NCBI RefSeq assembly: GCF_005145025.1
Contig: NZ_CP039695.1
Location: forward strand, 2,227,501 to 2,291,500
Reading direction: 5' to 3'
Length of the DNA stretch: 64,000 nucleotides
From: Novosphingobium sp. EMRT-2
GTDB taxonomy: Bacteria; Pseudomonadota; Alphaproteobacteria; Sphingomonadales; Sphingomonadaceae
The number at the start of each line of letters is the position of its first letter. The stretch's first letter is position 1. Under the pieces are notes generated by a model. It was not told where the DNA came from, made no database searches, and saw only the letters and a list, made by a program, of their open reading frames with translations. Of the stretch, positions 425 to 15,689 are shown one piece after another. A program made the position numbers and the translations under genes.

Positions 425-1936
425 ATGGCGCTGGGTCCGCGCCTCGACATACGGCAAACCCAGTCGCTGGTGATGACGCCGCAGCTCCAGCAGGCGATCA
501 AGCTGCTGGCGCTGTCCAATCTCGAAGTGGAAACCTTCATCGGGGAAGCGCTGGACGCCAACCCCCTGCTCGAGATCGGCGAGGCGGCCGCGCCGCCCGA
601 TCCGCTCGACGGCCTGCCCGAGGAGGCCCGGCGCACCCAGCTTGAAACCTCCCCGGTCGACCAGCTCGTCAGCGAGGGCCGGGTGGAGGAGGATCGCCCG
701 CTGGACATCGACGTTACCGCGCTCGACCGGGATCGCGATACCGGCGACGTGCCGGATTATGGCCTGGGGAGCGGAGCCGCGGGCGCGGCGGCGGGCGGCG
801 AAGGCCCCGGCATCGACGAGCGTGGGGATTTCGACGAGACGCTGGCGCAGCACCTCCATGCCCAGATCGGCGCGGCGACGTCCGACGCGCAGCTGCTGTT
901 CGTCGCGCGCTGGCTGATCGACCAGATCGACGAGGCTGGCTACCTCACCATCACGCTGGCCGAGGCGGCCGCCGACCTGGGCGTTCCCGCGGCCACGGCG
1001 GAAGCGGCGCTGGCGCTGGTGCAATCGCTCGATCCCACCGGCGTCGGCGCGCGCTCGCTGTCCGAATGCCTGGCGCTGCAGGCGCGCGAGGCCGATCGCT
1101 ACGATCCCTGCATGGCGCGGCTGATCGACAACCTCGATCTGGTCGCGCGGGGCGAATTATCCCGGATCAAGCGCATGTGCGGCGTGGACGACGAGGATTT
1201 CGCCGACATGCTGGCCGAACTGCGCGGCTATGATCCCAAGCCCGGCCTTCGCTTCGGCGGCGGCGGCGCGGAAGCCGTGGTGCCGGACATCCTGATCCGC
1301 GCGGTGCCGCGCAAGGATGGCTCGGTCGATTGGGACATCGCGCTCAACCAGGCCACGCTGCCGCGCCTGATCGTCAACCGCAGCTATTACGTGCAAATGC
1401 GCGGCGCCTGCGTCAGCAAGGAAGCGCGCGGCTGGCTGGGGGAAAAGCTGGCCGACGCCAACTGGCTGCTGAAAGCGCTGGACCAGCGGCAGAAGACGAT
1501 CCTGAAAGTGGCGGCCGAGATCGTGAAGCAGCAGGACGGGTTCTTCCGCCACGGCGTCTCGCACCTCCGTCCGCTGACGCTGCGCGCAGTGGCGGAAGCC
1601 ATCTCGATGCACGAATCGACCGTGAGCCGCGTGACCTCGAACAAGTACCTGCACTGCGATCGCGGCACGTTCGAGCTGAAGTATTTCTTCACCTCGGGCG
1701 TCGCTTCGGCCGATGGCGAAGGCGCGGTATCGGCCGAAGCGGTCAAGGCCGCGATCCGGCAACTGATCGACGCCGAAGATCCCAAGGCGATCCTGTCCGA
1801 CGATGCGCTGGTCGATCTGCTGAAGCAGCGCGGCTTCGATCTCGCCCGCCGCACGGTCGCCAAGTATCGCGAGGCGATCGGGCTGGGCAGTTCGGTGCAG
1901 CGCCGCCGCCAGAAGGCGCTCGCCGGGGTGCGCTGA
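425..1936 (+). CDS. rpoN: RNA polymerase sigma-54 factor RpoN
   Basis: This sigma factor directs RNA polymerase to -24/-12 promoters that need an AAA+ activator. The 503-residue protein has full family length. It starts with the glutamine- and leucine-rich Region I (RQTQSLVMTPQLQQAIKLL), continues through an acidic Region II and a core-binding domain, and ends with the helix-turn-helix and the RpoN box (ARRTVAKYRE). The ATG at 425 follows a purine-rich GGGGGAA stretch. Coming directly after lptB, it is probably co-transcribed with it. No hpf or ptsN gene follows here, because the next gene is on the opposite strand. Confidence 0.97.
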   Translation: MALGPRLDIRQTQSLVMTPQLQQAIKLLALSNLEVETFIGEALDANPLLEIGEAAAPPDPLDGLPEEARRTQLETSPVDQLVSEGRVEEDRPLDIDVTALDRDRDTGDVPDYGLGSGAAGAAAGGEGPGIDERGDFDETLAQHLHAQIGAATSDAQLLFVARWLIDQIDEAGYLTITLAEAAADLGVPAATAEAALALVQSLDPTGVGARSLSECLALQAREADRYDPCMARLIDNLDLVARGELSRIKRMCGVDDEDFADMLAELRGYDPKPGLRFGGGGAEAVVPDILIRAVPRKDGSVDWDIALNQATLPRLIVNRSYYVQMRGACVSKEARGWLGEKLADANWLLKALDQRQKTILKVAAEIVKQQDGFFRHGVSHLRPLTLRAVAEAISMHESTVSRVTSNKYLHCDRGTFELKYFFTSGVASADGEGAVSAEAVKAAIRQLIDAEDPKAILSDDALVDLLKQRGFDLARRTVAKYREAIGLGSSVQRRRQKALAGVR

Positions 1937-1940
1937 GCGG

Positions 1941-2825
1941 TTATTCCGCCGCTGCCATCCCGGTTCCCGCCAGACCAGCGTCCGGGCGCTCGGCCAGCAT
2001 GTGCTGGATCATCTGCTGGAGATTGGCGTCATAGCGCGCCAGCACCAGCCGGTCCTCGGCCGTGTCCCAATGCGTCACCAGTTCGCGGCCGTTCCACCAG
2101 TGCAGCGCGTAGGCCGGTGGATCGGCGACGATCAGGTTGCGCTGATCGGGCACGTCGGGATCGATCGGCCGCAAGTCGAGCGCGACCTGTGGCGCCGTGG
2201 ACGGGCAGGTGGCCACGATCACTTGCTCCCATCGTGTCGCGCTGGCGCGATGGATGTGGCCGCAGACCAGCCCCGTCACGTTGTCGCGCCCGCGCAGGCA
2301 GGACGCCAGCCGTTCCACCCACGGCTCGGCCGCATCGGTGTTCATCCACGGGATGCCGGCCTCGATCGGGGGATGGTGCTGCACGATCAGCGTGGGCGTG
2401 GCCGTGTCCTCGTCCAGCCGCGCGGCAAGCCATGCCGCGCGCTCCTCGCAGAATGCGCCGCCATGCCGCCCCTCTTCCAGCGTATCGAGCACGATCAGCC
2501 GCAGCACGGGGCTGTCGATCACGTATTGCAGATAGTCCCCGGTGAACGGCGCGTGCGGAAAGACCTCGCGAAATGACGCGCGCTCGTCGTGGTTGCCCAG
2601 CGCGAAATGCACCGGAAACGGCAGCCCGGACAGCGCCTCGCGCAGCCGTTCGTAGCTCTCCCGGTCACCGCGATCGACGAGATCGCCGGTCGCGAGCAGC
2701 AGATCGGGGCGCGGGTCCATGTCCAGCAAGGCCTGGACCGTGCGGTCCAGCCGCAGCCGGTTGAATTCGTCCGGCGTGTCCGGCTCGAACCCCAGGTGAA
2801 TGTCCGTGATCTGTGCGATCAGCAT
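1941..2825 (-). CDS. cpdA: Class III cyclic-nucleotide phosphodiesterase (CpdA-like metallophosphoesterase)
   Basis: This is a predicted cytoplasmic binuclear metal phosphodiesterase that hydrolyses 3',5'-cyclic nucleotides. All metallophosphoesterase blocks are present in order: TDIHLG near the N-terminus, GDLVDRG, GNHDE, QHHPP and GHIHRA. About 294 residues is normal for the CpdA/YfcE-like group. I chose the ATG at 2825; an in-frame TTG 18 bp earlier is less likely. It starts 24 bp after the stop of the decaheme cytochrome gene and is probably the last gene of that transcription unit. The first protein of that unit carries two cyclic-nucleotide-binding domains, so cAMP or cGMP is a plausible substrate. 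The family also contains enzymes with other phosphodiester substrates. Confidence 0.85.
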   Translation of the reverse strand: MLIAQITDIHLGFEPDTPDEFNRLRLDRTVQALLDMDPRPDLLLATGDLVDRGDRESYERLREALSGLPFPVHFALGNHDERASFREVFPHAPFTGDYLQYVIDSPVLRLIVLDTLEEGRHGGAFCEERAAWLAARLDEDTATPTLIVQHHPPIEAGIPWMNTDAAEPWVERLASCLRGRDNVTGLVCGHIHRASATRWEQVIVATCPSTAPQVALDLRPIDPDVPDQRNLIVADPPAYALHWWNGRELVTHWDTAEDRLVLARYDANLQQMIQHMLAERPDAGLAGTGMAAAE

Positions 2826-2849
2826 CGCCCCGCGCTCCCCCAAGCCCGC

Positions 2850-4760
2850 TTACTTCAGGGATGCCGGCCCCCACTGCCGGGGCCGGTCGGCCACGGCGGT
2901 GTGAATCGGATCCTGCGGACGCTTCCTGTCCCGTTCGCCCTTCGGCTGCCACGGCGCCCCGCTATCCATGTGATAGGAATGGCACATCGCGCAGCCGGAA
3001 TCGACCGGGTCCTTGACCTTGACCGAAGCCAGGTGTGTTCCCCCCTCGCCCACGTGGCAGCTGCGGCAGCCGCCGGGGCCGTCCATCCCGGGAACGAGCA
3101 GGTCGGAAGCGTCGTTCGATTGCGGCGCGCGGGTGTGGCACGCCACGCAATCGGTCTTGCGGTGATCCTTGTGATCGAACCAGCCGGTGTTGTAGTAGCG
3201 CCCGTTCTGCGCCACCGGCTGGACCGCGAAGCCATCGGTCGCCGCCGTGCCGCCGCGCGTCACGGTATGGCAGTCATAGCACATGCCGCCCTTGGAAAAG
3301 ACCTGTGCGATCGCCTGGTCGGCGCGGGTGGGATAGAACCGCACCGCGCGGGCATAGTCCGCCGCGCTCGCGCGCAGCGCCGCATCGCCGGGCACCCGGC
3401 GGGCAAGCCCCGAAAGGTTCGCCGGCCGCGCCGGCGCGGTGCCGCGATAGAACGCGCGCAGGTCCGCAACCACCATCGCCGGTTCGCCATGGCGCAGCGA
3501 CCGGAAGGTGCCGCCCACTTCGTCGAAATTCAGCGAATGGCAGCTCTGGCAGGCCTCTTCCATCACCACCGGCTTGAACCGCGCGCCGCCCGAATCGGTC
3601 TTGTGGCAATCCTGGCAACCCAGGCCCTCGTTGCCGGCGAAGCGGCCGGGCCGGCGGCGCACCATCTGCGCCACGCCGTTCACCTTCGACAGATGCTGGG
3701 CGTGCGTGAATTTGAGGCCGTTCGGCTCGCGCAGGGTCGGGCTCCACACCGCGCGTTGCAGCAGCGGTTTCGCACCGTTCATGCCGACGATCACCGTCGG
3801 CCTGAACTGCGGGTGCGCCGTTCCGAAATCGGCGGCATCGGCGATCTTCGTGTCGGTCAAGCGCGTCTTCAGCCCATCGTGGCAGTCGGTACAGAACTGC
3901 TGCCGGGTGGCCGGCATAGCACCGGCCCCCTCGTGTTCGGTGTGACAATCCACACAACGGCCGGCGGGACGGTTGAAAGCGGTCGCCACCGCGCGCTGGA
4001 ACGCGGCGAAACCGTGCGGTTCGCCGCGCGCGCGCACCAGCCGCGCCGCATCGGGGATGTGCTGGTGCGCATCCTGCGTGTGGCAGGTGAGGCAGGCATT
4101 GTCGCGAACCGCCACGAACGCCTTGACGTGGCAGGCCTGGCAATCGTTCTCGAGATTCTTGTGCGCGAGGCTGAGATGGCCGGAAGACCACGCCTTGTCG
4201 GCATGGAAGCCGGCGGGGCGGCGATCGTCCTTGTGCAGCGCCAGCGGCTTGTACGTGGCATAGCTCCAGATCGGAAAGGCTAGGAACGCCACCAGGATCA
4301 GGATCGCGAAAGTCCAGGCCGACATGCGCTTGCCCGGTAGCAGGCCTTTCAGCGTGTAGGCGCTGCCGAGATCGACATCCTCGGCCGATTCGGAAAGCGC
4401 TTCCACCCGCCGCACCGAAAAGACCGGCAACCCGCTGTCCGCATCGCGCGAAAGCTGGATGCGGTGGCCGCCGAAGCCCAGTTCGGCGCCGGTGGCGATG
4501 TCCAGTTCGCGCCGGTTGACGCTGCGGCCGTTGACGTCGAACGGCTGGTCGCCGATCGATTCGATCATCAGCCGCTGGTCATCGATCCGCGTGACCCGCG
4601 CATGGCGCGGATCGACGGCAAGATCGGGCAGGTGGATGCCGCAGGCCGCGTCGCGGCCGATGGTCAGTTCATCGCCGTCCACGCGGGAGCCGCGAACGAT
4701 CTCCTCGCCGCTGGACTTGAGCGCGATCTGGCGGATCAGGAAGCTCATGGAGGCGCTCAC
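2850..4760 (-). CDS. FHA domain-TM-decaheme cytochrome c
   Basis: This 636-residue electron-transfer protein has three parts. An N-terminal FHA domain (about residues 30-105) contains IGRDAACGIHLPD, PRHARV and the NGR motif. A single membrane helix spans about residues 147-168, with basic residues (GKR) before it that place the FHA domain in the cytoplasm. Ten CXXCH haem-attachment motifs run from residue 207 to 594: CQACH, CLTCH, CVDCH, CTDCH, CQDCH, CQSCH, CYDCH, CVACH, CRSCH and CAMCH. Many extra histidines could be distal ligands. The GTG at 4760 overlaps the upstream stop by 4 bp; an ATG at 4748 is the alternative. FHA domains normally read phosphothreonine, and its fusion to a multihaem cytochrome is unusual. 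No outer-membrane porin partner is visible nearby. Confidence 0.88.
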   Translation of the reverse strand: MSASMSFLIRQIALKSSGEEIVRGSRVDGDELTIGRDAACGIHLPDLAVDPRHARVTRIDDQRLMIESIGDQPFDVNGRSVNRRELDIATGAELGFGGHRIQLSRDADSGLPVFSVRRVEALSESAEDVDLGSAYTLKGLLPGKRMSAWTFAILILVAFLAFPIWSYATYKPLALHKDDRRPAGFHADKAWSSGHLSLAHKNLENDCQACHVKAFVAVRDNACLTCHTQDAHQHIPDAARLVRARGEPHGFAAFQRAVATAFNRPAGRCVDCHTEHEGAGAMPATRQQFCTDCHDGLKTRLTDTKIADAADFGTAHPQFRPTVIVGMNGAKPLLQRAVWSPTLREPNGLKFTHAQHLSKVNGVAQMVRRRPGRFAGNEGLGCQDCHKTDSGGARFKPVVMEEACQSCHSLNFDEVGGTFRSLRHGEPAMVVADLRAFYRGTAPARPANLSGLARRVPGDAALRASAADYARAVRFYPTRADQAIAQVFSKGGMCYDCHTVTRGGTAATDGFAVQPVAQNGRYYNTGWFDHKDHRKTDCVACHTRAPQSNDASDLLVPGMDGPGGCRSCHVGEGGTHLASVKVKDPVDSGCAMCHSYHMDSGAPWQPKGERDRKRPQDPIHTAVADRPRQWGPASLK

Positions 4761-5674
4761 CAGTAGAAGAAGACGCTGACGATATGCGCGGAAAGCGCGG
4801 CGAGCAGCGCGAAGGTGACGGGAACGTGGACGTAGAGCCAGGCCTGCAGCCAGGTCTTCAGGCGCAAGTGCTTGCGCAACCGCCCCAGCATGGCCTCCTT
4901 GCGCGTGAGCAGCGCGTCCACCTTGTCCAGCGGATCATCGGCGGTGCGCGCGCGGTAGGCCCGCATCCGGCGCAGTTCCGCCGCCGCCGCGCGCGTGGCG
5001 TCGCGGGCGTAGCGACCGGTCACGCGATTCCAGAAGGAGCCCGCGAAGGGGTTCTCCTCCAGGCTGCTGTTGACCAGCGCCGCCGCCTGCGGATCGAGCG
5101 GCTGCGCCGCATCGTGAATCTGCCGGTCGAGCGACCGCAGCGCTTCCACCATCTGCTTCTCGGTGATCGCGCCTTCCTCGTCATAGCGGTTGTCCGACAG
5201 CGCGCTGGGCAGCGTGGCATAGACCCAGATGCCGAACAGGCCCGACAGGATCACCAGCATCATCAGCGCCCACGCCAGCGTGTGCACGTTCCAGCCGAAG
5301 TGGAAGCCCGAATGCAGCGTGCCCACCACGATCAGGCACAGCCCGAGATAGACATGCGCCGAGGTCCACGCGCGCAGCGACCAGCGGCCCGGCGTGATCG
5401 CGCGCTTGCGCACGCCCAGCAGCGTCAGCCACAGGATCAGCAGCGCGCCCAGCGTGCCGAGCGTGTAGCCCAGCCAGCTCGATCCGAAATGCTGCCCCGG
5501 CAGCGGCACGAACACGTACAGCGCGATCAGCACCACCGCGAGCAGCGCGGATATCTTGAGCCACCGTCCGTTGCGATAGCGCAGGAAGCCTTCGTGCGTG
5601 CTGGTCCGGTCGCGGCTGGTGCGCGGACGGCGAACCTTGCCGGCCTTTTCCGGCCCCTGGGCAACGCTTGCCAT
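4757..5674 (-). CDS. Five-helix membrane protein, probable di-haem b electron carrier
   Basis: This is a 305-residue inner-membrane protein with helices at about residues 39-58, 66-88, 107-127, 132-154 and 279-303. Helix 3 has His107 and His121 and helix 5 has His283 and His297. Both pairs are 14 residues apart, the spacing expected if two haems b are bound one above the other between two helices; more histidines (125, 131) follow helix 3. A long cytoplasmic loop (about 155-275) is charged and mostly helical. I do not recognise a named family. The gene starts 2 bp after the stop of the oxidoreductase gene and overlaps the cytochrome gene by 4 bp, so the three should be co-translated. Haem binding is inferred from histidine spacing only. 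Confidence 0.75.
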   Translation of the reverse strand: MASVAQGPEKAGKVRRPRTSRDRTSTHEGFLRYRNGRWLKISALLAVVLIALYVFVPLPGQHFGSSWLGYTLGTLGALLILWLTLLGVRKRAITPGRWSLRAWTSAHVYLGLCLIVVGTLHSGFHFGWNVHTLAWALMMLVILSGLFGIWVYATLPSALSDNRYDEEGAITEKQMVEALRSLDRQIHDAAQPLDPQAAALVNSSLEENPFAGSFWNRVTGRYARDATRAAAAELRRMRAYRARTADDPLDKVDALLTRKEAMLGRLRKHLRLKTWLQAWLYVHVPVTFALLAALSAHIVSVFFYW

Positions 5675-5676
5675 GG

Positions 5677-8253
5677 TCAGGCCTCCTCGTTCTCGAGCCG
5701 GGCGACGGTCAGGAACTCGTCGGGCGAGACGCGGATCGCCGCGCCGGTGGGGCAGGCCCGCACGCAGCTGGGTCCGCCGTCGATCCCGGCGCACATGTCG
5801 CACTTGATCGCCTTCTTGCGGTCGAGCAGTTCGTCCACCGCCGGATCGCCGGTGTACTTGGTGTGCTTCTTCGACCACTTGTAGGAAGGCTCGCCCGGCC
5901 CGGGGCCGCTGCCGAAGAACAGCCACGACCATAGCGAAGGCTTCTTCGGCGGCACCTTCTCCATGCGGATCACGCCATAGGGGCAATTGCGCTGGCAGTT
6001 GCCGCAGCCGATGCAGGTATCGTTGATCGAGACCTCGCCATCCGGCCCGCGCTGGATCGCGTTGGGCGGGCAATCGGCCATGCAGTGCGGATGCTCGCAG
6101 TGCCGGCAACTGGTCGGCACGTGCAGGTGGGCAAAGCTGCGCCCCGCCTCGCGATCCAGCCGCGACAGGCCGTCATGGCTGTCGGCGCAGGCCTTTTCGC
6201 AATTGTCGCAGCCCACGCACAGCGTCTCGTCGATCAGCAGCACGTCGGTCGCCTCGCCCAGCCCCTGGCTGACGAGGAACTTGGCCTGCTCCGAATAGAG
6301 GTCGACCACGCCCGAAAAGCTGTCCTTGCGCGATTCGATGAAGGCGTTGGTCTTGCGGCGGCCTTCCATGTCCTTGCGCGCGCGCTCCAGCAGCGCCGGC
6401 CTGGCCGCCAGCACGCGGGCGAAGGCATCGCCATCGATGCGGATCACTTCGGACTTGATCGCCGCGCGCACCGTCGCCGTGCGCTGGCCGCCATCGATCA
6501 GCGCCATCTCGCCGACGTAGGAGCCGGCCGGAAGGTAGGACAGGAACACCGGCTTGCCGCCGACTTCCTTCTCCACGATCATCGATCCCACGCGGATGAC
6601 GAAGACATCGCGATCCTCGTCGCCCTCGCTGATGATCGGCTTGCCCGCCGGCACCTGTTCGATCCGCGCGGTTTCCACCACTTCGCGGATATCGTCGGGC
6701 GTCAGCCCCGATCCGAACATCTGCAGGATCTGCCGCTCGGTAGAAATACGCTCGATCGCGCGCCGCGCGGTCGGCACCTGGCTTTGCAGCTTGAGCGCGG
6801 CGTTGCGGCTGATCTCGACGCAGATCGTGTCTTCCGCCGCCACGATCGTCGCGCCGCGCCGCCGGCCGGAAATGAGGCCGACCTCGCCGAAGATCGTGCC
6901 TTCGGGAATGGGCACGACCCGCGAGGGATCGTTCGGGTCGATGCGGACGTGGACCGATCCCGAAGCGATCGCGAACAGCGAGGACCCCGGATCGTTCTTC
7001 TCGAAGATGACCTCGCCCTTGCGATAGGCGCGCGCATCCGAATCGAGCATGAATTCGCGCAACTGCAGCGTGGTCATGCCTTCCAGGATGGTGATCCGGG
7101 TGCGCAGGAACTCCAGCCATTCGGTGACCGACCGGTTGCCCGGCAGATTGCGGAACCGCGCTTCCAGCAGCGGTTCGTCCGCCGGCTTCAGCGCGGTGTT
7201 GCCGTTGATGAACTCGATGACGTCATAGCCCTGGTTCATGCAGTGCTTTATCAGCGGATAGCCCGCCAGCGCGCCGATCACGAAGATGCCGGGCGCGGTC
7301 GATTCGAACTGGGGCGAAAGCGTGGGGAAGGCCAGCCGGTCGGCGCTGGCGAACGCGATGCCGCAGCCTTCGACGAAGGCGCGCGGCGGGGCGGAGCCGA
7401 TGCGCGCGATGATCCGGTCGCAGCGGATCTTCTCCTCGCCATCGCGCGTGGACAGGGTGATCCAGCCCGGTTCGACCGACTTGGTTTCCGTTTCGTAGCG
7501 GATCGTCAGCCGGCCGGCCGCATCGTCCTCCACCAGCGCCTTGGCGTTCGGCTCCTTGGCGGTGGGGAAGCTTTCGCGCACGTTGGTCGATTTGGGCGCG
7601 CGGTTAAGCACGGTGACGACATTGCCCTGCGCCGCATCCTCGACCAGGCCGCGCGCGTTCTCGATCCCCGCGTCGCCGGTGCCGATCACCACGACGTGCT
7701 CGTCGAGAATCGCGTAGGGATCGTCGAGCTGGTAGGTCACGTGCGGCAGGTCCGAGCCGGGGCAGCGCAGCAGGTTGGGATTGCCCTGCGTGCCGATCGC
7801 CAGCACCACGTTCTCGGCCAGCACCGTCTCCCCGCTGGTCAGCTCGATCGCATAGGGCGGGGCATGGCGCTGCAGCTCGGTGGTCGTGGTGGAGCCGTCC
7901 CGCGCGCGCGAAACGATCGTGTGCACCGAACCGGGGATAGCCTCGCCCGTGCCGCGAATCGCCTTCACGTCGGCGTTGTATTTCACGTTCACGCCAAGCT
8001 CGGTGGTCCGCCGGTTCCACTTGTCGAGGATGTCCTCCTTCTTGCCGGCGTCGAACTCCTGGTCGGAACGCAGGATCAGCTGCGATGGCGTGGCCATCAC
8101 GTGCTTGCCCTTCTGGTACTTGAAGATCGTGTCGGACAGATGGTCCGACTTTTCGAGCAGCACATGCTTCAGCCCGAGCTGCGCGGCGCGGCTGGCCGCG
8201 CTCATGCCCGCCGGGCCGGAGCCGATGATCGCAACTTTGAAGACTTCGCTCAC
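5677..8253 (-). CDS. FAD/NAD(P) oxidoreductase fused to two cyclic-nucleotide-binding domains and a four-cluster ferredoxin
   Basis: This 858-residue soluble protein has four modules. Residues 1-350 are a thioredoxin-reductase-like flavoprotein with GSGPAG (11-16) for FAD and GTGDAG (191-196) for NAD(P); the active-site CxxC is absent. Residues 393-500 and 530-625 are two CNB domains. The second has a near-textbook phosphate-binding cassette, GEMALIDGGQRTAT; the first has FGEVGLISG followed by RRGAT. Residues 679-835 are a DmsB/HybA-like ferredoxin with four cysteine groups (CVGCDNCEKAC, CRHCEHPHC, CIGCGNCQRNC, CDMC with CVRAC). The GTG start at 8253 follows GGGGGA at good spacing. It probably feeds electrons from NAD(P)H to the membrane cytochromes encoded next, gated by a cyclic nucleotide. 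The gating is inference. Confidence 0.88.
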   Translation of the reverse strand: MSEVFKVAIIGSGPAGMSAASRAAQLGLKHVLLEKSDHLSDTIFKYQKGKHVMATPSQLILRSDQEFDAGKKEDILDKWNRRTTELGVNVKYNADVKAIRGTGEAIPGSVHTIVSRARDGSTTTTELQRHAPPYAIELTSGETVLAENVVLAIGTQGNPNLLRCPGSDLPHVTYQLDDPYAILDEHVVVIGTGDAGIENARGLVEDAAQGNVVTVLNRAPKSTNVRESFPTAKEPNAKALVEDDAAGRLTIRYETETKSVEPGWITLSTRDGEEKIRCDRIIARIGSAPPRAFVEGCGIAFASADRLAFPTLSPQFESTAPGIFVIGALAGYPLIKHCMNQGYDVIEFINGNTALKPADEPLLEARFRNLPGNRSVTEWLEFLRTRITILEGMTTLQLREFMLDSDARAYRKGEVIFEKNDPGSSLFAIASGSVHVRIDPNDPSRVVPIPEGTIFGEVGLISGRRRGATIVAAEDTICVEISRNAALKLQSQVPTARRAIERISTERQILQMFGSGLTPDDIREVVETARIEQVPAGKPIISEGDEDRDVFVIRVGSMIVEKEVGGKPVFLSYLPAGSYVGEMALIDGGQRTATVRAAIKSEVIRIDGDAFARVLAARPALLERARKDMEGRRKTNAFIESRKDSFSGVVDLYSEQAKFLVSQGLGEATDVLLIDETLCVGCDNCEKACADSHDGLSRLDREAGRSFAHLHVPTSCRHCEHPHCMADCPPNAIQRGPDGEVSINDTCIGCGNCQRNCPYGVIRMEKVPPKKPSLWSWLFFGSGPGPGEPSYKWSKKHTKYTGDPAVDELLDRKKAIKCDMCAGIDGGPSCVRACPTGAAIRVSPDEFLTVARLENEEA

Positions 8254-8528
8254 CGGTGTGCGTCCCCCGCAACACGAAAGCGGACCTCTGCGGGTTCCTG
8301 CTTTCCATCAACCGATTTGCGACCCCTGTTCGCGCGGACATTAGCGGATGAACCGGGCTTTGCCACCCGCAAATTCGCGCTGCCGCACACAAGGGGGCGG
8401 ACACGGGCGCGTGCAAGGACATGCAAGGCCCCCGGTCGGGGAACCCGCCCTCGCCGCGCGCCGCCTTGCAACATGGTGCGCGAGCGCGATATGCGGTTGC
8501 AGCGCAAGAACGCCGCAAGGAGATTTCG

Positions 8529-9548
8529 ATGACCGAGGCCGAGCAGTCTCCTTCCGCAAGTCCCGCCCTCGAAAGCCCGGCTCCGCAGGCCGCGGGCGGG
8601 GCGGGCTGGTTGGGCAGGGTGCTTCTCGCGGGCGCGGCGGTCATGGCCATCGCGGCGGCGGGCGTCGCCATCTATCGCGGGCAGAAGCAGGAGACCGCGG
8701 TGGTCGCGCCGGCGACGGCCGATGCCAGCCAGGCGCCTTCGGTCGACGATGTGATCGCCAAGCTCGAGGCCAAGCTGAAGGCCGATCCGGAAAATGCCGA
8801 AGGCTGGCGCATGCTGGGCTGGTCCTATTTCCAGACCGAACGCTATGCCGAAGCCGCGACCGCGCTGAAGAAGGCGACCCGGCTCGATCCCGATCACGCA
8901 GAAACCTTCTCCTTCCTGGGCGAGGCGCTGGTGCTGGCGAGCGACAGCGAGGGGCGGATACCCCCCGATGCGCAGGCCGCATTCGACCGCGCGCTGCAAC
9001 TCGATCCCAAGGATGCGCGGGCGCGCTACTTCAAGGCGGTGGCGATGGACCTTTCGGGCCAGCACCGCCGCGCGATCGACATGTGGTTCGACCTGCTGGC
9101 GGATACCCCGTCCGACGCGCCCTATGCGGACGATATCCGCGACGTGATCCGCAACGTGGGCCAGAAGTACAAGATCGACGTGGACAAGCGGCTGGCCGAA
9201 GCGCGCTTCGCCGCGCCGGCGGCCGGCATGGTTACCGACGGTGCGCAAAAGGCGGCCTCCGGCATTCCCGGCCCGACGGGCGACGAAATGAAGGCCGCCG
9301 CCGGCCTGCCCAAGGGGCAGCAGGAGGCGATGGTGCGCGGCATGGTCGACGGGCTGGAGGCGAAGCTCGCGCAGAATCCCGGCAATCCCGATGGCTGGAT
9401 CATGCTGATGCGCAGCCGCATGCAGCTGGGCGAACCGGGCAAGGCCGGCAAGGCGCTGCAGGATGGCCTGGCCGCGTTCCGCAACGATCAGGCGACCAGC
9501 CGCCGGCTGCGCGAGGCCGCCGCCACCCTGGCGGTTCCCGGCGCCTGA
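8529..9548 (+). CDS. TPR protein, CcmI/CycH-like cytochrome c maturation factor
   Basis: This is a predicted periplasmic TPR protein of 339 residues anchored by one N-terminal helix (about residues 27-49). TPR units include ENAEGWRMLGWSYFQTERY and PDHAETFSFLGEALVLAS, followed by a second TPR block near the C-terminus. This resembles the C-terminal periplasmic part of CcmI (CycH), the chaperone that holds apocytochrome c for haem ligation. The ATG at 8529 follows AAGGAG at ideal distance; a longer in-frame opening upstream has no supporting ribosome site. It is divergent from the decaheme cytochrome unit, which fits a maturation role. No other ccm genes are present, so this may be a second, dedicated copy or simply a general TPR protein. 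Confidence 0.75.
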   Translation: MTEAEQSPSASPALESPAPQAAGGAGWLGRVLLAGAAVMAIAAAGVAIYRGQKQETAVVAPATADASQAPSVDDVIAKLEAKLKADPENAEGWRMLGWSYFQTERYAEAATALKKATRLDPDHAETFSFLGEALVLASDSEGRIPPDAQAAFDRALQLDPKDARARYFKAVAMDLSGQHRRAIDMWFDLLADTPSDAPYADDIRDVIRNVGQKYKIDVDKRLAEARFAAPAAGMVTDGAQKAASGIPGPTGDEMKAAAGLPKGQQEAMVRGMVDGLEAKLAQNPGNPDGWIMLMRSRMQLGEPGKAGKALQDGLAAFRNDQATSRRLREAAATLAVPGA

Positions 9549-9597
9549 CCGCCGGCGGCGGTTTCCGCCCGCCCCATGGTTCCCAGCGCCTGTTGAA

Positions 9598-9737
9598 AAC
9601 CCGCGCGACTCGCCGCGATTGCGGCATTTACGCGAAATTAACCTTTAATGTTCATTGGTCCTATGGTTAATGTCGGACAAGAGCGTTTGACGAGGGATTA
9701 ACGCTGCCATCCTGTTATGGCGAGAAGGGGCGGTTGT
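9598..9737 (+). promoter_or_regulatory. ctrA upstream control region with GANTC and TTAA half-sites
   Basis: The region before ctrA holds one GANTC methylation site (GACTC, 9607-9611) and four TTAA half-sites at 9638, 9645, 9667 and 9698, plus an inverted TTAACC/GGTTAA pair (9638-9643 and 9665-9670). In Caulobacter, ctrA transcription is controlled by CcrM methylation of GANTC, by GcrA and by CtrA itself. None of the half-sites here has the exact TTAA-N7-TTAA spacing, so CtrA autoregulation is only suggested. Confidence 0.5.
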
Positions 9738-10439
9738 ATGCGTGTGCTGCTGATCGAGGACGAGCCGACCACGGCCAAGGCCATCGAGCTGATGCTTTCG
9801 GCCGAAGGTTTCAACGTCTATTCAACCGATCTCGGGGAAGAAGGCCTCGATCTCGGCAAGCTCTATGATTACGATATCATCCTTCTGGACCTCAACCTGC
9901 CGGACATGCACGGCTACGATGTCCTCAAGAAGCTGCGCGTCGCCAAGGTGCAGACGCCGGTTCTCATTCTCTCCGGCATTTCGGAAATGGATTCGAAGGT
10001 GCGCAGCTTCGGCTTCGGCGCCGACGACTACGTGACCAAGCCTTTCCACCGCGAGGAACTGATCGCCCGCATCCACGCGGTCGTGCGCCGTTCCAAGGGC
10101 CATTCGCAATCGGTCATCCGCACCGGCAAGCTTTCGGTCAACCTCGATGCCAAGACGGTGGAGGTCGATAACGCGCGCGTGCACCTGACCGGCAAGGAAT
10201 ACGCGATGCTTGAGCTGCTCTCGCTGCGCAAGGGCACCACGCTGACCAAGGAAATGTTCCTGAACCACCTTTACGGTGGCATGGACGAGCCGGAGCTCAA
10301 GATCATCGACGTGTTCATCTGCAAGCTGCGCAAGAAGCTGGCGCACGCCTGCGGGGGTGACAACTACATCGAAACCGTCTGGGGCCGCGGCTATGTGCTG
10401 CGCGATCCGGACGACAAGCTGGACGTCGAAGCCGCCTGA
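9738..10439 (+). CDS. ctrA: Cell-cycle response regulator CtrA
   Basis: This is the master OmpR-family response regulator of alphaproteobacterial cell cycle, motility and polarity. The receiver starts [10 protein letters not shown] and its phosphoacceptor is Asp51 ([11 protein letters not shown]). The conserved Thr/Ser (LILSG) and Lys (VTKPF) follow. The C-terminal winged helix includes [12 protein letters not shown] and the recognition region [14 protein letters not shown]. The protein ends in Ala-Ala, as in the ClpXP-degraded Caulobacter CtrA. The ATG at 9738 matches the canonical start and follows AAGGGG; an in-frame ATG at 9717 is less likely. It is monocistronic, closed by a terminator at 10491-10530. 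Confidence 0.97.
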
Positions 10440-10490
10440 TTTTCCGGGCTGATTTTCCGCCCACATTTCCCGCAACGTCTGTTCCTGACG

Positions 10491-10530
10491 AAAGCGGTCC
10501 GCTCCGGGGGGTGCGGGCCGCTTTTCGTTT
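10491..10530 (+). terminator. Rho-independent terminator after ctrA
   Basis: An 11-bp stem (AAGCGGTCCGC against GCGGGCCGCTT, one G-U wobble) is followed by TTTTCGTTT. It lies 52 bp after the ctrA stop and separates ctrA from trmB. Confidence 0.85.
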
Positions 10531-10603
10531 GCGGGCTCCCTCTCCCCAACCCGGCACCGGTCTGCTAGGCGCGCCGCTTTATCGACCAGCAGGCCTCCGT
10601 TTC

Positions 10604-11329
10604 ATGACCGCGCACAAGTCCGGCGATCCCACCACGCTCAACCGCCTCTACGGCCGCGCCAAGGGCAAGCCCCTGCGCCAGGGCCAGCAGGCGCTGGTCG
10701 ATACGCTGCTGCCGCAAATCGCGGTGCCGGCGGACGGCCCGGTCACCGCCGAACGCCTGTTCGGGCACGATTGCACGCTCCATTTCGAAATCGGCTTCGG
10801 CGGCGGCGAGCACATGGCCGCGCGGGCCGACATGCTGCCCGATCACGGCTTCATCGGGGCCGAACCGTTCCTCAATGGCGTGGCGCAGGCGCTCACGCAC
10901 CTTGACGGCGACGGCGGCCGGCACCCGCCCATTCCCAACGTGCGCATCCATCACGGCGATGCGCTGGAGGTGCTGGCGCGCATTCCCGACGGTTCGCTGT
11001 CGTTCCTCTACCTGCTCCACCCCGATCCCTGGCCCAAGGCGCGCCACGCCAAGCGGCGGATGATGAACGACGGCCCGCTGCGCCTGTTCGCGGCCAAGCT
11101 GAAACCGGGCGGCGAGTTCCGCTTCGGCACGGACCACGCGATCTACCTGCGCCATGCCCTGATGGTGATGCGCCGCCATCGCGATGCGTTCGAATGGCTG
11201 TGCGAGAAACCGGCGCAGTTCCAGAAGCGCCCCAGCGGTTGGCCGGAAACGCGCTACGAGGCCAAGGCGCGCAACGTCTACGGCCACGAGGTCTGGTATT
11301 TCCGCTATCGCCGCCGTCAAGAAGGCTGA
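10604..11329 (+). CDS. trmB: tRNA (guanine-N7-)-methyltransferase TrmB
   Basis: TrmB makes m7G46 in the variable loop of tRNAs using S-adenosylmethionine. The 241-residue protein shows the class I methyltransferase glycine motif (FEIGFGGGEHMAARA), the IGAEPF block, and the TrmB signature LHPDPWPKARHAKRR. It also has the C-terminal TRYEAKARNVYGHEVW, all typical of the family. The ATG at 10604 starts the conserved part; an upstream open stretch that runs through the ctrA terminator is not considered coding. Confidence 0.95.
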   Translation: MTAHKSGDPTTLNRLYGRAKGKPLRQGQQALVDTLLPQIAVPADGPVTAERLFGHDCTLHFEIGFGGGEHMAARADMLPDHGFIGAEPFLNGVAQALTHLDGDGGRHPPIPNVRIHHGDALEVLARIPDGSLSFLYLLHPDPWPKARHAKRRMMNDGPLRLFAAKLKPGGEFRFGTDHAIYLRHALMVMRRHRDAFEWLCEKPAQFQKRPSGWPETRYEAKARNVYGHEVWYFRYRRRQEG

Positions 11330-11339
11330 GGCGACAGGG

Positions 11340-11354
11340 TTAACCTCAAAATAA
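11340..11354 (+). promoter_or_regulatory. Putative CtrA-binding box (TTAA-N7-ATAA)
   Basis: TTAA at 11340-11343 and ATAA at 11351-11354 are separated by exactly 7 bp, one mismatch from the CtrA consensus TTAA-N7-TTAA. It lies 72 bp before the start of the 11427 gene. The assignment is by motif only. Confidence 0.45.
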
Positions 11355-11426
11355 CCAAGCATGGCGCATGATCCAGCATGCCGGTCCCCCCGGAGTCGCA
11401 GGGGACACCAAGGCAGGAGTTGGTTC

Positions 11427-11954
11427 ATGTCGAACGCCGACACCGCTACGCTGATCCTGACCGAGATGCGCGAATTCGCGAGCTTCTCGGCCGCCGAACA
11501 ACGCTATATCCGGCGCAGTCTGGATGTCGGCCTCGGCCGGCAGGATGCGTTCCGCCTGTGGGCGCGCAGCGGCGAGGAAACCGCCTCGATCCGCGCGCAG
11601 TACGTGATCTATCAGGATCTCAAGACGCTGCGCACGGTCCTGCCCGAAGGCCCCGGCCCCGATGGGCTCGAAAGCTTCATGGGCAAGCTGATGCGCGTGA
11701 CCGCGTTCGATCTGGGGCAGGAACGGCTCAGCTGCTTCTCGGCCTATCGCTTCCTCTACGAACGCCTGCTGGGCGCCGAAGTGCGGCCGTGGCTGCCGGG
11801 CGCGTTCTGCGGTGCCGCGGCGCTGCCGCAGATCCGGCCGGAACGGCGCAAGGGCCTGCTCCAGTCGATCAGCGAAGCCGCCGCCACCGCGCCGGGCTGG
11901 TCGCCCCGCGCGCCGAAGTTCTATCCCGAATTCGTGGAACTCGAAGCGGCCTGA
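11427..11954 (+). CDS. Hypothetical protein, 175 aa, conserved-looking
   Basis: I do not recognise a family. The protein starts MSNADTATLIL and is soluble and mostly helical with no signal peptide. The C-terminal third is rich in Pro, Arg and Ala and ends in a PKFYPEFVELEAA stretch. The ATG at 11427 follows AGGAG at good distance, which favours it over an earlier in-frame ATG at 11361. A CtrA-like box sits 72 bp upstream, so it may be a cell-cycle-controlled gene. Codon use matches its neighbours and there is no sign of recent transfer. Confidence 0.75.
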   Translation: MSNADTATLILTEMREFASFSAAEQRYIRRSLDVGLGRQDAFRLWARSGEETASIRAQYVIYQDLKTLRTVLPEGPGPDGLESFMGKLMRVTAFDLGQERLSCFSAYRFLYERLLGAEVRPWLPGAFCGAAALPQIRPERRKGLLQSISEAAATAPGWSPRAPKFYPEFVELEAA

Positions 11955-11981
11955 TAACGGACTGCCTGAAAAACAGCCCCT

Positions 11982-13784
11982 TTATGCCTTGTAGAGCGCA
12001 TCGATCCGCGCGCCGTACCGCTCGCGGATCTTGTGCCGCCGGATCTTGAGGCTGGGCGTCATCTCGCCGTTGTCGATGCTGAACGCCTCGTCCGCGAACG
12101 CGAACTGGCGGACCTTCTCGATCACCGACAAATCCCGGTTCACCCGGTCCACCGCTTCGCGAATCGCGTTGCGGAAGGCTGGCAGGTCCTGCAACGTCGC
12201 CATATCGAACTTCTCGTCCTGGTCCCGCGCCCATTCGACCGCCCATTCCGCATCGGGCACGATCAGGCCGACCAGATAGGGCCGCTTGTCGCCCGAAACC
12301 ATCGCCTGCGCGATTTCGGGCTGGAGCGTCAGCATCCCCTCCACCTTCTGCGGGGAGACGTTGTCGCCCTTGTCGTTGACGATCATGTCCTTCTTGCGGT
12401 CGGTGATGACGATCCGGCCGTTGGCGTCGAGATGGCCGATGTCGCCGGTGTGCAGCCAGCCATCCTGGATCGCCCGTGCGGTTTCCGCCGGGTTGTGCCA
12501 GTAGCCGTGCATCACCAATTCGCCGCGCACGAGGATTTCGCCGTCCTCCGCGATGCGGACTTCCACGCCCTTCATCGGCGGGCCGACGGTGTCCATCTTG
12601 ATGCCCGCCGCGGGGCGGTTGCACGAGATCACCGGCCCGGCCTCGGTCTGGCCATAGCCTTGCAGCATGGTCAGGCCCATCGCCTCGAAGAACACGCCGA
12701 CATCGGGATTGAGCGGCGCCCCGCCCGAAACCATCGCCTTGATGCGACCGCCAAAGCGCAGGCGGATCTTGGGGCGCAGGCTCTTCTCCAGCAGGAAATC
12801 CATCGGCCGGTCCAGCAACCGGGGGCGGCCCCGCGCCTGGCGCTCACCGATCGCCAGCGCCCGGCCCATCAGGTAGTTGGCCACGCGGCCCTGCTTTTCC
12901 ACCTGCTTCATGATGCGCGTGCGCAGCACTTCGAACAGCCGCGGCACCACGACCATCAGAGTGGGACGCACTTCCTCGATATTGCTCGCCAGCTTTTCCA
13001 GCCCTTCGGCATAGAAGATCTGCGCGCCCATGCCGATCGGCAGGTACTGGCCACCGGTGTGCTCGTAAGCATGGCTGAGCGGCAGGAACGACAGGAACAC
13101 TTCCTCGTCCCAGCCGAAATCGTTGGCCAGGATATGCGCCGCGCCATCCACATTGCACAGGATCGCGCCGTGGTGCTGCACCACCCCGCGCGGCGCGCCG
13201 CCGGTGCCGCTGGTATAGATGATGCAGGCAGTGTCCGCGCGCCCGATGCCGGCGATGCGCGCCTCCACCGCCGCGCGGGCCGCCGCCACATCCCCCGCCA
13301 GCAGCGCGTCCCAGTCGTGGAACGTCAGCGTGCCCGATTGCGCCTGCCGCAGCGGCTCGATGCCGATGACGTGTTCGGCGCAGGGCGCGCGCAGCGCCGC
13401 CGCCAGCAGCGGCCGCGCCAGCTTGGCGTTGGAAACGATGATCGCGCGCGCGCCGGAATTCTCCAGGATGTGCAGGTGATCGCGCTCGGTATTGGTGATG
13501 TAGGTCGGCACGGTGACCAGCCCGGCGGCCATGATCGCCAGATCGGCCAGGCACCATTCGGGCCGGTTTTCCGACACCAGCGCCACCCGGTCGCCATCCT
13601 TCAGGCCCAGCCCGCGCAGGGCCTCCGCCATCAGGCAGACCCGGTCCGCCGCCTCGCGCCAGGTGATCGCCCGCCACGCGCCATCGTGCTTGGCCGAGAG
13701 GAACGGCCCATCGCCCCGCACACGCGCGCGGTCGAAGAACATCGCGACCAGGTTCGGGAATTGTTCGAAATCGCTGAGTTGCAC
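11982..13784 (-). CDS. Long-chain acyl-CoA synthetase (AMP-forming)
   Basis: This enzyme activates fatty acids to acyl-CoA through an acyl-adenylate. At 600 residues it belongs to the FadD15/ACSL-like group. Visible motifs are the P-loop IIYTSGTGGAPRG, the QGYGQTEAGP adenine-binding block, the WLHTGDIG segment with its ribose-binding Asp, and the hinge RKKDMIV. The GTG start at 13784 follows AGGA and is the natural start of the conserved N-terminus. The second glycine pair in the P-loop replaces the more usual TGxPKG. It stands alone between convergent and co-oriented neighbours, so operon membership is unclear. Confidence 0.93.
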   Translation of the reverse strand: MQLSDFEQFPNLVAMFFDRARVRGDGPFLSAKHDGAWRAITWREAADRVCLMAEALRGLGLKDGDRVALVSENRPEWCLADLAIMAAGLVTVPTYITNTERDHLHILENSGARAIIVSNAKLARPLLAAALRAPCAEHVIGIEPLRQAQSGTLTFHDWDALLAGDVAAARAAVEARIAGIGRADTACIIYTSGTGGAPRGVVQHHGAILCNVDGAAHILANDFGWDEEVFLSFLPLSHAYEHTGGQYLPIGMGAQIFYAEGLEKLASNIEEVRPTLMVVVPRLFEVLRTRIMKQVEKQGRVANYLMGRALAIGERQARGRPRLLDRPMDFLLEKSLRPKIRLRFGGRIKAMVSGGAPLNPDVGVFFEAMGLTMLQGYGQTEAGPVISCNRPAAGIKMDTVGPPMKGVEVRIAEDGEILVRGELVMHGYWHNPAETARAIQDGWLHTGDIGHLDANGRIVITDRKKDMIVNDKGDNVSPQKVEGMLTLQPEIAQAMVSGDKRPYLVGLIVPDAEWAVEWARDQDEKFDMATLQDLPAFRNAIREAVDRVNRDLSVIEKVRQFAFADEAFSIDNGEMTPSLKIRRHKIRERYGARIDALYKA

Positions 13785-13909
13785 GTCCGGTCCTCTGCCC
13801 CACCCGCGCGCCGGCCTCTGCTCCGCCGTTCGCGCAGGGGAAAGTCCTAAAGAAGCCGCGCCGCTACGGCAACCTTGCGCGGGCGGGCGCGCCGATCAGA
13901 AAGCGCCGT

Positions 13910-15679: not shown

Positions 15680-15689
15680 GGCCGCAAGG

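Follow-up and report, generated by a model that had tools for sequence, protein, structure and literature searches.

A putative inner-membrane module of a cyclic-nucleotide-gated electron conduit in Novosphingobium

Electron conduits to the cell exterior, such as MtrCAB of Shewanella with CymA and the porin-cytochrome systems of Geobacter, combine an input in the inner membrane with periplasmic multihaem cytochromes and, in the outer membrane, a barrel and a large multihaem cytochrome. Sphingomonads are not commonly associated with extracellular electron transfer. Two further types, the porin-cytochrome clusters PCC3 and PCC4, were predicted in 2017 in iron oxidisers and other Proteobacteria (PMC5566968). 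As described in the main text of that study, their inner-membrane proteins of about 300 residues have five helices, with an SGxxG motif on helix 4 and W-x3-H-x13-H motifs on helices 3 and 5; they adjoin porins and multihaem cytochromes, and the role proposed for them is electron transfer across the inner membrane, in a flow drawn from an external donor to quinone. According to the same text (PMC5566968), PCC3 has medians of 34 (extracellular) and 21 haem motifs and a large porin, and the PCC4 cytochromes have 4, 5 and 10 motifs and are all periplasmic; subgroup II of PCC4 has an Fe-S gene (PF13247) upstream of the membrane gene, and one genome annotates both as one gene.

The four-gene unit and its conserved core

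Our window, a 64,000-nucleotide stretch of Novosphingobium sp. EMRT-2, carries on its minus strand (1941-8253) genes for a flavoprotein, a diheme-b-type membrane protein, an FHA-decaheme cytochrome and a phosphodiesterase, in that order, which confirms the close-spaced genes and the products reported in the first-pass annotation. The flavoprotein gene (5677-8253) is separated by 2 bp from the diheme-b-type gene (4757-5674). The cytochrome gene follows after an 8-bp gap when read from its ATG (2850-4748, 632 residues) or overlaps the preceding stop when read from the upstream GTG at 4760 (2850-4760, 636 residues), and the gap to the phosphodiesterase gene is 24 bp from an ATG (1941-2825) or 6 bp from a TTG (to 2843).

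The first three genes, the core, have the same order in all 37 related loci, one of which (L067) ends inside the second gene. These loci reach as far as Gallionella, Nevskiaceae and Magnetococcales, and in two genomes (L066, L101) the flavoprotein and the diheme protein form a single polypeptide. In alignments that include the window and comprise 36 flavoproteins, 36 diheme proteins and 35 FHA-decaheme cytochromes, the Fe-S cysteines, both nucleotide pockets, the haem-b histidines and the ten CxxCH motifs with ten further histidines of the cytochrome are invariant; rows truncated at a contig end or extracted in the wrong frame were excluded (L052 and L058, L055 and L067, and L041 and L054, respectively), and L067 has no cytochrome row. 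As the core order holds throughout and the haem and cluster residues do not vary, the arrangement is more than chance. The invariant redox sites and the gene fusion further support the proposed transmembrane electron path.

The flavoprotein (858 residues) consists of an FAD/NAD(P)-binding part (about 1-350; Pyr_redox_2/3), two cyclic-nucleotide-binding (CNB) domains (about 376-640; two PF00027 stretches, 4.7e-34) and four 4Fe-4S motifs (679-834; several Fer4 models and PF13247 above its cut-off), whose 16 cysteines are kept in 36 of 36 proteins. Hydropathy shows no hydrophobic or transmembrane segment, and we therefore place the protein in the cytoplasm. For its FAD domain, the nearest NCBIfam model is YpdA, at 107.4 bits far below the cut-off of 339.9. 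The Fe-S part resembles the four-cluster ferredoxin subunits DmsB, HydN, ArrB, HmcB and HybA, all far below cut-off, with a formate hydrogenlyase subunit as its PDB match and AegA, a formate-dependent uric acid utilisation protein with Fe-S and NAD(P) parts, as its best NCBIfam match (66.6 bits, cut-off 1003). We know of no CNB domains in any of these six. A further difference to them is the membrane partner, which in the Novosphingobium unit is the diheme five-helix protein.

This second protein (305 residues) has five helices both by hydropathy and charge and in a structure model (pLDDT 72). Its two H-x13-H pairs, H107/H121 on helix 3 and H283/H297 on helix 5, are predicted to hold two b haems, one per membrane side, with the large loop in the cytoplasm. 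The four histidines, H131, W103, G145, G148 and W279 are each found in 36 of 36 proteins and Ser144 of the SGxxG motif in 34, such that W-x3-H-x13-H occurs twice in every one. By length, helix number and these motifs (34-36 of 36), it fits the PCC3/PCC4 type of inner-membrane protein. Its sole Pfam match, to cytochrome b561 (PF01292), stays below threshold (17.8 bits, cut-off 30.1), a PDB profile search gave no useful match, and in a Foldseek search of the model against the PDB nothing was significant (best E 0.46). The membrane domain of ferric reductases and NADPH oxidases (NOX) likewise carries one H-x13-H pair on helix 3 and one on helix 5, a comparison drawn in the main text of PMC5566968, but the diheme protein has no PF01794 match, PDB profile match or significant fold match to it.

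In the third protein, a cytoplasmic FHA domain (PF00498, 25.5 bits, cut-off 20.7) precedes a single transmembrane segment (142-160) and a periplasmic decaheme c-type cytochrome (PF14522/PF14537), in which the ten CxxCH motifs and ten further histidines are invariant in 35 of 35 proteins. Phosphothreonine-binding FHA domains have a site formed by Gly-Arg, Ser-x-x-His and Asn, where the serine normally contacts the phosphate. Here G31 and R32 are found in all 35 proteins and H49 in 34, but a serine at position 46 in only two and an asparagine at position 73 in 20. These residues do not fit a phosphothreonine-binding domain, and the suggested phosphothreonine control of the unit is thus not supported.

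Upstream of the unit, a divergent intergenic region (8254-8528) is the presumed site of its promoter. Neither here nor upstream of the outer-membrane operon described below did we find an FNR-, CRP- or NnrR-type box common to the loci; there are single near-matches, an 8/10 FNR-like box that the window has in common with two near-identical loci and a 9/10 CRP-like box in L130. We make no claim of co-regulation of the two operons. The plus-strand gene beyond (8529-9548) encodes a TPR protein of the CcmH/CycH type (CcmI-like, cytochrome c maturation; PF23914, 8e-20, 71.7 bits, cut-off 42). It is the divergent neighbor in the sphingomonad and Caulobacteraceae loci, in some of them beside CcmF and a thioredoxin-like gene, and may help in haem attachment.

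Nucleotide pockets and phosphodiesterase

Cyclic nucleotides are held by a phosphate-binding cassette in which Gly, Glu and Arg are conserved. Both cassettes of the flavoprotein (G456, E457, R466, T469 and G581, E582, R591, T594) are kept in 36 of 36 proteins, and the genome carries two class III cyclase genes. Cyclic-nucleotide competence, as proposed from the window, is supported by these observations, and the motifs predict the flavoprotein to be a cyclic-nucleotide-binding effector. Loss of the core order or of the CNB domains in most relatives, named at the outset as a reason to reject the proposal, was not seen for the three core genes. The nearest PDB entry to the CNB pair is a Toxoplasma PCR12 chain, followed by domains of cGMP- and cAMP-dependent kinases (compare PKG and the PKA regulatory subunit). 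Unlike in YpdA and in tandem CNB proteins, the domains are here fused to a redox relay.

The phosphodiesterase is a class III metallophosphoesterase (PF00149) related to SpdA and CpdA. It scores 125.7 bits against SpdA, the NCBIfam model for 2',3'-cyclic nucleotide phosphodiesterases (cut-off 400), and 83.1 bits against that for 3',5'-cAMP phosphodiesterases (NF008359, cut-off 225). The enzyme is cyclic-nucleotide-phosphodiesterase-like; its first description as CpdA-type is not established, both scores being below cut-off and that for SpdA the better one. Of the 33 loci in which 1 kb or more of sequence is available beyond the core, 25 have the gene there within 300 bp. It is missing there in two alphaproteobacterial loci (L055, L058) and in all six loci from outside this class, and its linkage is thus alphaproteobacterial and incomplete, which leaves the idea that it resets the signal with weak backing.

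The outer-membrane operon and the direction of flow

The path as first drawn, from NAD(P)H to ten c haems, is supported for its inner part but would not end there; an outer-membrane half is encoded elsewhere in the genome. This second operon, 1.1 Mb from the unit (G000:C1:1119070-1129170), encodes a c554-like cytochrome, whose five haem motifs are four CxxCH and one CX4CH (a count of zero for L141 comes from an antisense frame and was disregarded), a lipoprotein-like HbpS-like protein (PF03928, a haem-degrading family), an outer-membrane barrel and a giant decaheme cytochrome that has LVIVD repeats, with 10 CxxCH motifs and 16 further histidines invariant among 12 aligned sequences. The barrel has no Pfam or NCBIfam model, neither it nor the giant cytochrome has a useful PDB profile match, and the MtrC-domain model is matched only below cut-off. 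In Foldseek searches the modeled barrel, with 18 strands, matches outer-membrane proteins of the AlgE/OprD type (E 2.4e-15), its mean pLDDT being 60 with the first 137 residues below 50; the barrel proteins end in an aromatic C-terminal strand. Barrel and giant cytochrome are adjacent in each examined locus holding both, so that a predicted outer-membrane β-barrel gene adjoins a multihaem cytochrome gene, as in porin-cytochrome clusters. The 18 strands are fewer than the 26 of MtrB, and with a model that is poor in part, the barrel is at most a candidate for sheathing a cytochrome.

Of 396 genomes from the host's order, 114 carry both the diheme protein and the giant cytochrome and the rest carry neither, when 12 of the 126 genomes matching the diheme protein are scored as lacking it on account of weak matches (E 9e-12 to 6e-6, 23-32% identity). 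The FHA-decaheme cytochrome is found in the same 114, and the barrel in 100 of 359 genomes searched, all within the 114. Part of this co-occurrence is shared ancestry, as all positives belong to one family, in which at least four genera are mixed, and a Fisher test on it ignores the tree. One might suppose that the core is a purely periplasmic supply line, sharing only hosts and neighborhood with a separate giant-barrel system, since the halves lie within 20 kb of each other in 67 of the 114 genomes and not in the other 47, and since 8 of 23 distant genomes lack both outer parts, including three Gallionella and the Magnetococcales (two of the eight appear to be one genome, and G523 holds a weak core relative only; in G545 there is a barrel and no match to the giant cytochrome). 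The perfect co-occurrence and a locus with all eight genes in one row (L125) make this highly improbable.

We also considered other uses of a connected chain. As drawn for PCC3 and PCC4 of iron oxidisers, electrons could flow inward, with quinone or NAD(P)+ being reduced by an external donor, which would suit the Gallionella loci and the direction modeled for the related inner-membrane proteins (PMC5566968, main text). The three Gallionella genomes without a match to the giant cytochrome or the barrel, the NAD(P)H-type flavoprotein at the soluble end of the core, and the presumably uphill step from c haems to NAD(P)+ render this reading quite unlikely. Very unlikely, too, is delivery to O2 at the surface, for making superoxide or disposing of reductant, even though the layout from NAD(P)H through flavin and two b haems to the outside recalls NOX and sphingomonads are mostly aerobes. 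In Gallionella and Magnetococcales the core lies near DUF1924 cytochromes, which we take to be of the O2-binding SHP type; the 16 further histidines of the giant cytochrome, however, suggest bis-His haems with no open O2 site. Somewhat easier to entertain, while still unlikely, is an assimilatory conduit that reduces ferric iron or haem outside the cell so that it can be taken up, with the HbpS-like protein handling haem or iron at the surface. The place of this protein in the outer-membrane set would fit, as would the ferric-reductase-like histidine pairs (PMC5566968, main text) and a Magnetococcales contig (L066) on which ExbD, ExbB, TonB and TonB-dependent receptor genes follow the core on the opposite strand, but that contig lacks the HbpS-like/giant set.

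The proposed conduit among known systems

The reading we prefer, and hold with about even confidence, is that the unit forms the inner-membrane module of a cyclic-nucleotide-gated conduit exporting electrons from NAD(P)H to the outer membrane. NADH or NADPH would reduce the FAD of the flavoprotein, from which electrons would pass through the four 4Fe-4S clusters that this protein also carries, then to the two b haems of the five-helix protein, at H107/H283 on the cytoplasmic and H121/H297 on the periplasmic side, and on to the ten, probably bis-His, c haems of the FHA-anchored cytochrome. From there, in alphaproteobacteria and Nevskiaceae, they would continue, via the c554-like cytochrome where present, to the outer-membrane module and an external acceptor. 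Binding of cAMP or cGMP in the two pockets, located between the FAD and Fe-S parts, would gate transfer between these parts, and in sphingomonads the phosphodiesterase after the core probably lowers the nucleotide. With electrons handed straight from the flavoprotein to the diheme protein, the chain would bypass the quinone pool; the diheme protein may nevertheless make a bc1-like quinone contact. The fuller proposal of a quinone-independent NAD(P)H wire across both membranes, whose first enzyme is a direct allosteric cyclic-nucleotide receptor and which thereby places a second-messenger switch in an extracellular chain, is more tentative, and we regard it as possible though doubtful.

If the conduit is real, many common sphingomonads (114 of the 396 genomes sampled from the order) have an eight-gene route for external electron exchange, with cAMP or cGMP acting as a switch on the protein itself, the predicted PCC3/PCC4 type gains a direct NAD(P)H input, and a case of a cyclic-nucleotide-gated redox chain is at hand. 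It would also account for two halves that are inherited together though often unlinked, and it would offer a deletable, testable gene set in culturable bacteria.

The whole gene set was not found in the literature searched, which covered main texts apart from preprints and most subscription papers. The main text of PMC5566968 contains no mention of cyclic nucleotide, cNMP, FHA, FAD or flavoprotein, while its supplementary domain lists may overlap; six terms searched in the main text of PMC11475568 had no occurrences, and the EsnA/cyclic di-GMP system, as far as its main text describes it (PMC5585712), is not this one. The initial statement that no such system has been described fits these searches for the whole set, but one part has a precedent: five-helix proteins in which H-x13-H occurs twice, encoded next to multihaem cytochromes, were presented in 2017 as the inner-membrane components of putative conduits to the cell exterior (PMC5566968, main text). 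Predictions of broadly similar conduits thus already exist, and it is the sensor-bearing version that appears undescribed.

With MtrCAB/CymA and the Geobacter systems, the Novosphingobium set, as predicted from its genes, shares the same general parts. Homology to MtrB and MtrC/OmcA, which would mark the MtrCAB/PioAB family, was not found, given a barrel without Pfam or NCBIfam model and without PDB profile match, the latter also lacking for the giant cytochrome; in place of a quinol oxidase it has an NAD(P)H flavoprotein with a diheme b protein, and its barrel is of the AlgE/OprD type. Nor is it a PCC3 cluster, with 10 motifs each in the giant and FHA cytochromes and 18 barrel strands. Compared with the description of PCC4, it has a barrel, a decaheme cytochrome, a c554-like protein and PF13247, but also a giant cytochrome, FHA and CNB domains, and may or may not be a PCC4 cluster; PCC4 has no outside cytochrome according to the main text (PMC5566968). 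Relative to both clusters, the Fe-S part belongs to a larger protein with FAD/NAD(P) and two CNB domains, an FHA domain is attached to the decaheme cytochrome, and an HbpS-like protein and a phosphodiesterase are added; the NAD(P)H input, CNB gating, giant cytochrome and sphingomonad distribution are apparently new. In Shewanella, control of the Mtr cytochromes by cAMP-CRP reportedly links cAMP to extracellular electron transfer. That link is transcriptional, whereas in Novosphingobium the predicted pockets lie inside the redox enzyme itself.

Conserved order of the core genes

In transcription order, the minus-strand unit in the window comprises genes for the flavoprotein (5677-8253), a diheme-b-type protein of 305 residues (4757-5674), an FHA-decaheme cytochrome (2850-4748, with a possible GTG start at 4760) and a phosphodiesterase (1941-2825, with a possible TTG start at 2843), separated by 2, 8 (or an overlap) and 24 (or 6) bp. 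The domain content assigned to the four genes in the first-pass annotation is borne out by Pfam and NCBIfam. The 305-residue protein is 100% identical to its homologue in Novosphingobium sp. MD-1 and 98% identical to that of a Novosphingobium MAG. Convergent with the unit is the gene for the sigma-54 factor RpoN (425-1936, plus strand; PF04552, PF04963, PF00309), with its end 4 bp from the phosphodiesterase gene; most Novosphingobium loci long enough to show it have RpoN on this side of the unit.

Scanning genome contigs with the 305-residue protein yielded 37 loci, on contigs named Novosphingobium, Sphingomonadaceae, Sphingomonas, Caulobacteraceae, Phenylobacterium, Nevskia, Gallionella and Magnetococcales, plus vaguer names, with identities to the query as low as 31%. 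The flavoprotein gene is upstream of the diheme gene in all 37 (two of these genes being cut by contig ends) and the FHA-decaheme gene is downstream in 36, the exception (L067) being a contig that ends inside the second gene. The conserved order that the first-pass annotation had proposed to look for thus recurs in the three core genes across the 37 loci, L067 being partial.

In a Magnetococcales contig (L066), flavoprotein and diheme protein form a single frame of 1123 residues, and genome G428 (locus L101) encodes the same fusion, with 1118 residues; genome G544, which shows the same contig as L066, was not counted as a further case. These fusions argue for contact between the two proteins. 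Novosphingobium flavoproteins have 858 residues or slightly more, compared to 794-830 in other complete unfused ones, an excess of about 30-60 residues, part of which comes from an extended segment following the second GxGxxA motif.

Among 398 genomes drawn across the phylum, 31 gave a diheme protein match at E <=1e-5, of which 15 were strong (E <=1e-70), eight of them from the window's own family. Weak relatives (23-32% identity) in 12 more genomes of the order (e.g. G145, G063, G032) and a second copy in G331 may be members of a wider class of H-x13-H inner-membrane proteins. All 12 plasmid records with the diheme gene are large Sphingobium replicons (0.88-1.28 Mb, one typed as conjugative), so the system is able to reside on large plasmids. 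On Sphingobium plasmids (L107, 1099-3514; L108, 2699-4993), the unit has upstream of it a gene for a 2OG-Fe(II) oxygenase and another for an outer-membrane secretion protein of the ShlB/FhaC type.

A probable outer-membrane half

Annotated Sphingobium plasmids carry a 1330-residue multihaem cytochrome near the unit. By clustering neighbours in 48 loci, combined with family searches, we found a recurrent set of an HbpS-like protein, a β-barrel and a giant decaheme cytochrome with LVIVD repeats. In the window's genome this set forms part of four minus-strand genes 1.1 Mb from the window (G000:C1:1119070-1129170, locus L112): a c554-like cytochrome (L112 15738-17171), the HbpS-like protein (13705-15738, with a lipobox-like start as judged by eye), the barrel (11675-13708) and the giant cytochrome (7071-11675). 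All 12 aligned c554-like sequences have four CxxCH motifs plus a single CX4CH; the giant cytochrome has ten CxxCH in every complete copy compared and 16 additional invariant histidines (12 aligned). The C-terminal strand of the barrel proteins is aromatic, and a barrel model with 18 strands (mean pLDDT 60, pTM 0.62) resembles AlgE and OprD-type proteins (E 2.4e-15).

A single draw of 396 genomes from the order was used to evaluate co-occurrence, with a diheme threshold of E <=1e-70 and with the 12 genomes that have weak relatives scored as lacking the protein. Diheme protein and giant cytochrome each occurred in 114 genomes, the sets being identical, with none having one alone and 282 having neither; these are raw genome counts, and all 114 positives belong to one family. 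The FHA-decaheme cytochrome is present in the same 114. The barrel was found in 100 of 359 genomes searched, all within the 114; the other 14 (13 numbered beyond the last barrel match, and G382) were taken as outside the barrel draw, given that its output leaves out these 14 and the majority of negative genomes. The two halves are less than 20 kb apart in 67 genomes, farther apart on the same contig in 18 and on different contigs, some of them short, in 29; in one locus (L125) all eight genes are consecutive on one strand. Since at least four genera contain genomes both with and without the set, its distribution probably does not reflect one single inheritance event.

Among 23 more distant genomes, the giant cytochrome was matched in 14 and the barrel in 15; G545 lacks a giant match, and its barrel is close to the end of a contig. 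Neither was matched in eight (G396, G428, G523, G544, the Gallionella genomes G781, G782 and G784, and also G785), of which G785 is apparently G544 again and G523 carries just a weak diheme relative. A DUF1924 cytochrome is encoded near the core in three loci of Gallionella and in the two genomes of Magnetococcales type (e.g. L063 10635-11485, L066 2348-2806, L101 6299-6754, in genomes lacking a match to the outer-membrane half), and L066 encodes ExbD, ExbB, TonB and a TonB-dependent receptor behind the core on the opposite strand (8193-12301, minus). From these different neighbours, where the outer half was not matched, it would follow that the core can be adapted to different outlets. Further neighbours are a small cytochrome c beside the DUF1924 cytochrome in Gallionella and a DsbD_2-type membrane protein on the other side of the core in L066 (1092-1832, minus).

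Divergent from the core, CcmF is encoded beside or near thioredoxin-like and CcmI-like genes in L054, L055, L057, L061, L098 and L126; these loci come from Caulobacteraceae contigs and from two other genomes, one belonging to the class and the other to the family. A role of these neighbours in c-haem attachment would fit.

Redox sites and proposed nucleotide control

The 16 cluster cysteines of the flavoprotein are invariant (36 aligned, including the window), as are H107, H121, H131, H283 and H297 of the diheme protein (36 aligned). Hydropathy and charge place its H-x13-H pairs on helices 3 and 5, and a structure model of moderate confidence has matching helices; we infer one b haem towards each membrane face. 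In the FHA-decaheme cytochrome, all ten CxxCH are invariant (35 aligned), together with exactly ten additional histidines (196, 230, 272, 312, 349, 352, 420, 526, 529, 593), the number required for ten bis-His haems.

The best-supported route, judged from sequence, would lead from NAD(P)H via FAD, four 4Fe-4S clusters and two b haems to ten c haems, from which additional c haems would carry electrons on to the outer membrane in alphaproteobacteria and Nevskiaceae. Rival readings propose iron or haem reduction or oxygen chemistry.

Along the NAD(P)H route, the pair of cyclic-nucleotide-binding (CNB) domains lies within a single polypeptide, between its FAD part and its Fe-S part, and seems well placed to gate electron transfer. 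All 36 flavoproteins compared, from Novosphingobium to Magnetococcales, retain Gly, Glu, Arg and Thr in both pockets, so that the flavoprotein is likely to bind cyclic nucleotide. Two class III cyclases are encoded in the window's genome, one of them (G000:C1:1150595-1151056, L172) at a distance of about 21 kb from the operon for the outer-membrane set.

Two further elements of the proposed regulation are weaker. Phosphothreonine control through the FHA domain is not supported: Gly-Arg (35/35) and His49 (34/35) are retained, but Ser at the phosphate-contact position is found in only 2 of 35 sequences and Asn73 in 20. The phosphodiesterase, presented as the fourth gene, is within 300 bp 3' of the core in 25 of the 33 loci having at least 1 kb downstream, but is not found there in L055 and L058, whose contigs are alphaproteobacterial or unassigned, or in any of the six loci from Nevskia/Nevskiaceae, Gallionella and Magnetococcales. 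It had been called CpdA-type; the NCBIfam SpdA model scores above the CpdA model, both below cut-off.

Comparison with predicted porin-cytochrome conduits

Two conduits, PCC3 and PCC4, were predicted in 2017 (PMC5566968). As described there, their inner-membrane proteins have about 300 residues and five helices, the fourth bearing SGxxG and the third and fifth each W-x3-H-x13-H; more such proteins were noted beside multihaem cytochromes. The window's diheme protein has all of these features: size, five helices, SGxxG and both W-x3-H-x13-H motifs. In addition, PCC4 includes a porin along with cytochromes bearing 4, 5 and 10 motifs; in its subgroup II the membrane gene is preceded by an Fe-S gene (PF13247), the two once annotated as one gene. 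The resemblance to the window's unit appears close. Electrons in PCC3 and PCC4 are depicted as flowing inward, to quinone (PMC5566968), and inward flow is a rival to the outward route from NAD(P)H. The main text makes no mention of cyclic nucleotides, cNMP, FHA, FAD or flavoproteins. Set against this description, several elements are apparently new: the polypeptide that combines FAD/NAD(P), CNB and Fe-S parts, the FHA decaheme cytochrome, the LVIVD decaheme cytochrome with its HbpS-like partner, the presence of the phosphodiesterase and, in sphingomonads, the strict pairing of two operons that are often unlinked.
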